This document shows, piece after piece, positions 19,056-21,346 of a DNA stretch of 45,646 nucleotides (position 1 is its first letter; every line of letters begins with the position of its first letter). The DNA is from Psychromonas sp. SA13A (GTDB taxonomy: Bacteria; Pseudomonadota; Gammaproteobacteria; Enterobacterales; Psychromonadaceae). Both the position numbers and the translations under genes were made by a program. The stretch lies in contig NZ_WTKU01000030.1 in the NCBI RefSeq assembly GCF_011378715.1, positions 1 through 45,646 on the forward strand, in the 5' to 3' direction. The notes under the pieces were generated by a model. That model ran no database searches. It worked only from the letters and a program-made list of their open reading frames with translations, and was not told the DNA's origin.

Positions 19056-19658
19056 TTAACTTTGTAATAACTGCTTATGAAAAAACAGCCATTGACTTTT
19101 AAAATGCTGAGTTGGTTTTTGTTTGAATTGAGAACGAACGAATTGATTAATACGCCCTTCTATATAGGCCAATAACAAATTAGCTAAGACACCTTCATCC
19201 ATATCAAATTTTTGACCATCTGATGTAGGACGCTCGCGCAGCGTTTGTTTTAATTGGGTTTCAAGTTTAGAAAAAACATGTTCGATACGGTGTTGTAATC
19301 GTTCATTTTCCCCTAACAATGCATCACCACTTAAAATACGTGTAATGCCGGGATTTTGCTCTGCAAAGCCCAATAAAAAATGCACAATATGTTCAATTCT
19401 CACAAAGGTATCTTTCTTTTGCTCTTTGATAAGGTTGATCTGACTAAAAATAGCGCTTTCTGTAAAGTCAATCAAACCCTCAAACATGCGCGCTTTACTT
19501 GGAAAATGACGATATAAAGCGGCCTCTGATACTCCCACTTCTGCAGCTAATTTAGCCGTTGTGATACGTTGACCAGGTTTTCCTTCAAGCATAATAGCTA
19601 GCGCACTTAAAATATCATCCTTTCGGTTTGCTTTTTTATTATTGTTTTTTGCAACCAT
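19056..19658 (-). CDS. slmA: Nucleoid occlusion factor SlmA
   Basis: TetR-family DNA-binding protein that, bound at chromosomal SlmA sites, blocks FtsZ assembly over the nucleoid. The 200-residue sequence closely follows E. coli Slm[35 protein letters not shown] is the helix-turn-helix region (key part [12 protein letters not shown]), then [15 protein letters not shown] and the C-terminal [25 protein letters not shown] precedes the ATG. In E. coli the order is coaBC-dut-slmA; here dut is decayed (see next entry) but the order is otherwise kept. Confidence 0.95.
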
Positions 19659-19723
19659 CTTAATAACTTCCTTTGTTATCTTTACTTATCTTTTTATTTT
19701 TATTGTCATTATTTTTTTTGTAA

Positions 19724-20056
19724 CTATTTATCTGAATGCACAACGCCACTTTTACCACGATCTGTTTCCTCAAAAATACTCACCACGTCACTACTATTTT
19801 TATAGTGATTGAAAATTAACCGCCTCATCATTTAGTGATCATTAGGTTGAACGCTAATTAACTATCGGTGCAACAACAAGGCATCAATATTCATTAACAC
19901 CTTCATAACCCCCCCATAAAATCAATTATTTTACGCTATTTTCATGATCAAACCACTAAAAGCACATTAGCGATGATTAGTGCAGGGGCAGCTATATGAA
20001 TTGCAATCTTTGTCTAACTCAACAATGTTGAAATACAACTTAGTCTCTATTACAGT
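19724..20056 (-). pseudogene. dut: Decayed dut (dUTPase) gene
   Basis: On the minus strand between coaBC and slmA, where dut sits in E. coli, dut-like blocks appear in the right order but in shifting frames. At about 20004 AIHIAAPALIIANVLL parallels AIHIADPSLAAMMLPR. Next AGTGGTTTG parallels the SGLG codons, and TATGAAGGTGTTAATG the DYQGQLM codons. Then TTCAACCT parallels the QP codons. Near the end, in frame to a TAG at 19724-19726, IFEETDRGKSGVVHSDK parallels DFDATDRGEGGFGHSGR. Internal stops and frame breaks are many, and about 38 N-terminal codons are missing. The glycine-rich last motif GGFGSTG, needed for nucleotide binding, is destroyed. Identification is by eye against remembered E. 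coli Dut. Confidence 0.75.
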
Positions 20057-20098
20057 AAAACTAAAAAAGCGCATAACTTGCTTTAGCAATAAGTGAGT

Positions 20099-21346
20099 TT
20101 AATTTGTGTCGTTACTAGGGCCTTGAGAAGCAGATTTAAACTGCTCACTAATAACTTTAAGTAGCTGAATAGCAACTTCTTTCTTGCTACTTAATGCAAT
20201 ATCAAAACGCTGTTTTTTAGAAAAAACAGTCAATGCATTATTATCGCTATTAAACCCTTGATCACTTATTGAAACATCATTTGCAGCAATTAAGTCTAAA
20301 TTTTTACGTTGTAGTTTCCCTAATGCATAAGCCTCTACATCATTTGTTTCAGCAGCAAAGCCCACGCAAAAAGGACGATTAACTGACTTCGCCACATCGG
20401 CAATAATATCTGGATTTTTAACCAAGGTTAATGTGATTGAATCAGTACCACTTTGTTTCTTCATTTTTTCATCATGGACTTGCTGTGCACGATAATCAGC
20501 CACTGCAGCACAAGCAATGAATATATCTGCATCAACAATTGAAGCAAGTGCTGCTTGATGCATATCAATCGCACTTTTTACATCTATGCGTTTAATATTA
20601 GAAGGTAGAGTTAATTGAACTGGTCCAGCAATTACGGTTACATTCGCGCCCATATTTGACGCAGCTTGCGCCAATGAAAAGCCCATTTTTCCAGAACTAT
20701 GATTACTTATATAACGCACAGGATCGATCGCTTCTTGGGTTGGTCCCGCAGTGATCACAACATTAACACCTGCTAAAGACTGATCCGCAGGCGCAAAAAA
20801 TTTACAACATAATTGAACCAAGTCAGGTACTTCAAGTAAGCGACCAGGACCAACGTCTCCACAGGCTTGTAAGCCTTGAGCGGGCCCCCATATATGTAAC
20901 CCTCGAGCTTTTAATACCTTCAAATTTTCTTGTGTTGCAGCCGCTAAATACATCTGTTGATTCATGGCTGGAGCAATCGCAATAGGCGATGGACTAGCTA
21001 AACATAAAGTTGTAAGCAACTCATCGGCCATGCCAGCGCGTAAACGAGCAATCGCATTAGCAGTTGCAGGTGCAATTAAAATTAAATCAGCCCATTTAGC
21101 TAATTCAATGTGACCCATACCAGCTTCTGCTTGGGGATCTAATAAGTCATCGTAAATGACATGACCGGAAACAGCTTGCATCGTTAAAGGGGTAATAAAC
21201 TGTTTAGCTGAAGCAGTCATTACAATACGAACTTGCGCGCCTTGATCAATTAAACGACGGGTTAATTCAGCACTTTTGTAAGCAGCAATCCCACCACAAA
21301 CACCCAACAGTATCTTTTTCCCTTCAAGGGGTAATATTGACAACAT
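20099..21346 (-). CDS. coaBC: Bifunctional phosphopantothenoylcysteine decarboxylase/synthetase CoaBC
   Basis: Two successive steps of coenzyme A synthesis. The CoaC half (about residues 1-190) is a flavoprotein decarboxylase with [13 protein letters not shown] ([14 protein letters not shown]), the active histidine in [10 protein letters not shown], the substrate-recognition PAMN and the catalytic cysteine in [10 protein letters not shown]. The CoaB half follows with [24 protein letters not shown] and AAVADYR, then KNPDII. At 415 residues the length is normal. It is divergent from radC. The normal neighbour dut is reduced to remnants just downstream. Confidence 0.96.

Follow-up and report, generated by a model that had tools for sequence, protein, structure and literature searches.

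Decay of dut in Psychromonas within lineages that lack dcd and carry a dCMP deaminase homologue

In Psychromonas sp. SA13A (genome G000) the feature between coaBC and slmA is, judged by its sequence, a dut pseudogene, and all ten genomes of the genus that lack dut also lack dcd, the gene for dCTP deaminase; nine of these ten carry a homologue of dCMP deaminase. dUTPase (Dut) keeps uracil out of DNA and is usually described as essential. Its loss here is probably explained by a move of thymidylate supply to dCMP deaminase, after which dcd was lost, the dUTP load fell and dut became expendable. The initial annotation of the window (the whole stretch of DNA analysed, 45,646 nt) had recognised the dead dut, and had overlooked the joint absence of dcd and presence of the dCMP deaminase homologue. 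The features of the locus are:

20099..21346, minus strand: coaBC, intact upstream neighbour, a 415-aa ORF with a match in all 24 genomes of the genus
19724..20098, minus strand: dut remnant in neutral decay, bounded by the stop codons of coaBC and of the former dut
~19960..20007, minus strand: upstream Dut block IAIHIAAPALIIANVL of weaker significance, in a different frame and in the correct order, seen in translation
19727..19855, minus strand: C-terminal third of Dut, still recognisable (residues 109-150), with degraded motif V and an in-frame TAA at 19832-19834
19724..19726, minus strand: old dut stop codon TAG, from the sequence and the end of the alignment
19659..19677, minus strand: leader directly before slmA, AACAAAGGAAGTTATTAAG, identical or one base off in the other six clade-A dut-less genomes
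19056..19658, minus strand: slmA (TetR-type), intact downstream neighbour, a 200-aa ORF, supported by relatives

The name slmA for the ORF at 19056..19658 is assumed from synteny; the leader AACAAAGGAAGTTATTAAG may be a ribosome-binding site.

The coaBC-slmA interval is 440 nt long and contains no ORF of at least 70 aa. A frameshift-tolerant alignment of positions 19659-20098 (minus strand) with the Dut protein of the relative G007 gave a score of 63, which was reached by 0 of 100 dinucleotide shuffles (24.4 on average, sd 3.2, at most 35); the antisense strand gave 24, and the intact dut regions of relatives scored 666-684 in the same alignment. The dead dut proposed initially at the conserved coaBC-dut-slmA position is thereby borne out, both by its place between the two neighbours and by homology above chance. 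Within the C-terminal part, Dut residues 109-115 align at 19835-19855, residues 116-128 at 19790-19828 and residues 130-150 at 19727-19789; the TAA at 19832-19834 separates the first two of these blocks, and the alignment ends at the TAG at 19724-19726. The block at ~19960-20007 reads IAIHIAAPALIIANVL here versus VAIHIADPTLAATILP in relatives. The upstream part as a whole scored 38-40, a value equalled by 0-2 of 200 mononucleotide shuffles per setting (8 settings), and yielded short blastn matches with E 0.008-0.03 in a database of only 13 regions. Several frames, internal stops and a correct order of blocks had been described from the letters, and the alignment agrees, with two frames, one in-frame stop and a statistically weaker upstream block; the full motifs I-V in a single open frame are not present. 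The tail had been said to have lost the glycine-rich last motif, but it is that motif itself, degraded: RGKSGVVHSDK in the remnant versus RGEGGFGHSGK (motif V) in relatives. A blastn search of the remnant against E. coli gave no match.

The sister genome G003 shares the remnant, as the comparison of sister strains proposed in the initial annotation brought out. The two are 89.2% identical across the remnant and 89.4% and 88.6% identical at third codon positions of coaBC and slmA, respectively; because these values are equal, the remnant evolves neutrally. The same equality makes it highly improbable that the stretch is kept as a functional short peptide or an slmA leader RNA, as does the loss of most or all of it from G013, G014, G016, G017 and G018, although its 3' end adjoining slmA is kept in the clade-A relatives. 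That dut is intact in the cell and was lost to an assembly or sequencing artefact is scarcely credible: G000 is indeed a draft of 51 contigs, but the locus is continuous, the remnant is common to G003, PF00692 finds no match in G019, a genome of two contigs, and seven species of one clade lack dut.

For the 24 genomes of the genus, dut was defined as a PF00692 match of >110 bits and real dcd as a PF22769 match of >130 bits. Under these thresholds dut occurs in 14 genomes and dcd in nine, all nine with dut. Five genomes have dut without dcd (G002, G007, G008, G010 and G012), ten have neither (G000, G003, G009, G013, G014, G016, G017, G018, G019 and G020), and dcd without dut was found in 0 of the 24. 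An intact 151-aa dut lies at the coaBC-slmA position in the 13 dut-bearing relatives with a readable locus, where coaBC and slmA are 445-687 nt apart; in the remaining one, G001, slmA lies beyond the fetched stretch and the dut match begins at base 4 of another contig. Among dut-less genomes the gap measures 440 nt in G000, 396 in G003, 297 in G009 and in G020, 284 in G019, 195-196 in G018 and G014, 179 in G013 and ~30-45 in G016 and G017, the values for G003 and G016 depending on which slmA start is taken. The gap of G013 holds readable Dut pieces (score 122), and remnants score 45 in G003, 49 in G009, 43 in G019, 41 in G020 and 36 in G018 (0 of 100 shuffles each); the score of 31 in G014 is not significant alone, since 3 of 100 shuffles equal it. 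The genus thus shows the stages side by side, from dcd with dut through dut without dcd and a remnant to a clean deletion.

A tree was built from 13 genes (3,519 columns). In it, the seven species of clade A without dut form a clade (UFBoot 100) beside the dut-bearing G007, G002 and G012, within a clade that lacks dcd (100). A second clade without dcd (UFBoot 100) unites the dut-bearing G008 and G010 with the dut-less G013 and G016, the pairing of the latter two being supported by just 75. G017 stands on a long branch, and its absence of dcd could reflect genome incompleteness. The loss of dut is therefore nested inside clades without dcd at least twice. Monophyly of the nine dut-less genomes of clades A and B was rejected (p-AU 2.6e-45), and monophyly of the genomes without dcd (A and B) was rejected by p-AU (0.001) but not by p-SH (0.08), in tests that used fast constrained searches and a model simpler than that of the main tree, with 5,000 replicates, too few for the AU test according to iqtree. 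A two-gene tree agrees on clades A and B and has a weak backbone (31-75 at several nodes). As dut is absent from the whole seven-species clade, its loss is probably not recent at strain level, and the initial description of it as fairly recent is doubtful.

A second dUTPase had been proposed to account for the decay, and searches of the whole G000 genome (4.57 Mb, 51 contigs, 99.98% complete) lend it no support. There was no match to PF00692 (trimeric dUTPase), to PF08761 (dimeric dUTPase) or to PF22769 (DCD or bifunctional DCD-DUT), and no extra MazG-like pyrophosphatase; the two PF03819 matches share one 309-aa frame of canonical size, as expected for the canonical two-domain MazG. ThyA is present, so that thymidylate auxotrophy was rejected as an explanation; it is matched in 23 of the 24 genus genomes, the match in G017 being a 74-aa fragment near a contig end. 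UDG-superfamily searches of G000 gave three matches, one of them below the family cut-off. An extra UDG-superfamily protein of ~195 aa (85-88 bits) was observed in G000 (L135:1405-1992, on G000:C49), G003, G009, G018, G019 and G020. These are all but one of the seven dut-less genomes in clade A, and no other genome of the genus has it at that score; the one copy scanned falls under all NCBIfam cut-offs.

The dCMP deaminase homologue, ~146 aa long, was found by a PF00383 search; the G000 copy lies outside the window (G000:C1:122350-122781). It occurs in 13 of 15 genus genomes without dcd versus 0 of 9 with dcd, at 87-100% identity to the G000 copy. The two genomes without dcd in which it was missed are G012 (51% complete) and G017 (a 500-contig draft, 93% complete), the latter with a partial, different deaminase-superfamily ORF (L213). 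The homologue matches phrog_174 (dCMP deaminase) with E 2.2e-48 and the solved deoxycytidylate deaminase 2w4l with E 3.4e-20, its best structure match being 7fh4 (a CMP/dCMP-type deaminase, E 6.5e-22). The motifs HAE and PCxxC, presumably its zinc-binding residues, are unchanged in 13 of 13 homologues. It would be expected to make dUMP from dCMP without dUTP as an intermediate. It falls under every NCBIfam cut-off, with a best score of 66 of the 400 bits required by an anti-phage dCTP deaminase model; because no NCBIfam model passes its cut-off, the homologue may instead act on dCTP, which would reverse the logic of the explanation preferred here. Among the best 120 of 1381 matches, the genera named are Psychromonas, Vibrio, Photobacterium, Grimontia, Agarivorans, Motilimonas, Shewanella and others, and the nearest phage relative in all 1057 matched records has <60% identity. 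A recent transfer between the two Psychromonas clades is unsupported: the proteins are sister groups (UFBoot 96), and at third codon positions the clades agree in only about half of the sites. Ancestral presence or an old transfer would fit equally well.

A census was taken of 295 genomes of the order, with G012 left out and with counts that ignore kinship. A single list of PF22769 matches served for both genes, strong matches being taken as Dcd and those of E 2.6e-7 to 3.3e-12 as Dut; 170 of the 222 genomes with dcd had at least two matches, and in these the second, not inspected one by one, counted as Dut, and 16 match-less genomes were identified by elimination. Calls of trimeric Dut agreed with a direct PF00692 search in 36 of the 36 non-genus genomes covered by both. 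This gave 222 genomes with dcd, 35 with dut and without dcd, and 38 with neither, the last comprising 36 match-less genomes together with G018 and G107, whose weak matches were not counted as Dut or Dcd (PF22769, E 6.5e-4 in G107; a 307-aa protein matching the phrog_1663 dCTP deaminase with E 6.8e-6 in G018). The deaminase homologue (E <= 1e-20; close at E <1e-80, distant at about 1e-29 to 1e-33) was present in 11 of the 222, all 11 with a second match taken as Dut, in 22 of the 35 (17 close, 5 distant) and in 31 of the 38 (28 close, 3 distant); of all 64 bearers in the order, 55 carry a close and nine a distant one. Ten genomes, all of family f6, combine a close homologue with dcd and a second match taken as dut, and this would be the starting state. 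The seven genomes with neither gene that lack the homologue are G017, G051 (92% complete, 5% contaminated), four tiny genomes of f24, and G132, whose row is unlisted and which is presumed to be a fifth of f24. At E <= 1e-20 the homologue is also missing from 13 of the 35 with dut and without dcd, 11 of these in family f3. Family f21, with 18 genomes lacking both genes, is presumably Vibrionaceae.

Dimeric dUTPase (PF08761) was found in 47 of 47 tested genomes with dcd and no detected trimeric Dut (47 of the 52 with a single Dcd-type match, the other five lying outside the test) and in 0 of 33 tested genomes with neither gene, 31 of which carry the dCMP deaminase homologue. No genome with dcd was seen to lack every described dUTPase, a statement that for most of the 170 rests on the second match, and every genome found without a described dUTPase also lacks dcd. 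Families f7, f8, f16, f4 and f13 retain Dcd and have the dimeric enzyme in place of a detected trimeric one. With Dut as the query, tblastn gave no match at the coaBC-slmA loci that bear the names Colwellia and Pseudidiomarina.

We infer that the homologue deaminates dCMP, that the dUTP level is low and that selection on dut was relaxed as a result. The dCMP deaminase would convert dCMP directly to dUMP, making dCTP deaminase unneeded and allowing dcd to be lost. The flux from dCTP to dUTP, which is the major dUTP route in Gram-negatives (PMC10733785), would then be gone, leaving only dUTP made via UDP reduction and subsequent kinase action, and uracil incorporation would drop to a level at which dut is expendable. 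The sequence would be a ratchet, with dCMP deaminase present, then dcd lost, and dut lost last. Ung repair, together with promiscuous pyrophosphatases (MazG, for example), would probably deal with the residual dUTP, the least supported step; UDP reduction, which still gives dUDP, is a point against the scheme. The rerouted state is permissive and not sufficient, because 17 genomes of the order with a close homologue and without dcd retain dut, and because yeast and C. elegans, although they possess dCMP deaminase, survive inactivation of dut only when ung is inhibited (PMC5519681).

Replacement of Dut by some other pyrophosphatase, undescribed or promiscuous (MazG-like, Nudix or of another kind), with an incidental pattern of dcd and dCMP deaminase, is unlikely. 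MazG-like enzymes have been suggested as possible substitutes (PMC5122711), 23 of the 24 genus genomes have a PF03819 match (22 of them a canonical two-domain MazG of >85 bits), and the dUTPase searches covered described families only, with Nudix and others outside them. The canonical MazG is, however, also present in 12 of the 14 genomes with dut, and a small extra MazG-like protein (frames of 124-137 aa), which occurs only in G007 (with dut), G009, G018 and G020 and not in G000, does not track with dut loss. Nor would an unrelated replacement of Dut predict the split of the dimeric dUTPase, 47 of 47 against 0 of 33. A tolerance of uracil in DNA through lost or weak uracil excision is less likely still. 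G016, with no match to dut, dcd or the UDG superfamily, would suit it, but nine of the ten dut-less genus genomes have UDG-superfamily matches and six of the seven in clade A have the additional one; such genes are present in G000, so its route does not run through loss of uracil excision, and as a general answer that loss was rejected, G016 being the exception. G016 itself is 99% complete and is a candidate for unusually high genomic uracil. A rerouted thymidylate supply thus remains the preferred reading.

Mutations in dcd are said to suppress lethal dut in E. coli (attributed to Wang and Weiss, 1992), and the likeness is that loss of dcd lets loss of dut survive; those are laboratory mutants, whereas the lineages here are natural and also bear the dCMP deaminase homologue. 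The supply of dUMP from dCMP and not from dUTP is shared with the Gram-positive and eukaryotic route (PMC10733785), but here it is proposed for Gram-negative marine bacteria, several of which also lack dut. Natural absence of dut in prokaryotes has already been published ('Life without dUTPase', Kerepesi et al. 2016, PMC5122711), with Vibrionaceae listed as lacking dut and having ung, with ung often retained in such prokaryotes, as here, and, again as here, with no described dUTPase; to explain survival, that paper proposes that ung is lost or inhibited, or that phage or novel enzymes step in. What differs is that a decaying dut is visible in the present genomes, tied to the absence of dcd and to a dCMP deaminase homologue; 'dCMP deaminase' and 'Psychromonas' are absent from the main text of that paper. 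A 2025 review (PMC12524310) names dut-less phyla, suggests unidentified enzymes and leaves the reason for dut absence open; its text never mentions 'dcd'. No link between dut loss and dcd or dCMP deaminase was found among the top-listed papers of the open-licence literature, and it may be in print elsewhere.

Many bacteria lack dut despite its label as essential, and the proposed link yields a simple genetic prediction that is testable in laboratory E. coli. More tentatively, though with a chance not far short of even, the rule may extend to free-living bacteria in general: dUTPase would be dispensable only in lineages that have lost dcd and draw their thymidylate from dCMP, in a one-way ratchet with dut last, and low dUTP production, not hidden dUTPases or uracil-tolerant DNA, would explain much of the natural absence of dUTPase.

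Two minor observations concern single genomes. The 307-aa protein of G018 (L125:1345-2268) has a hydrophobic segment after a stretch that resembles Dut/DCD, is neighboured by a 422-aa ORF and is possibly a mobile or defence gene. In G022, a genome of one contig, two overlapping frames share CoaBC between them (G022:C1:2816881-2818094), owing to a frameshift or a sequencing error.
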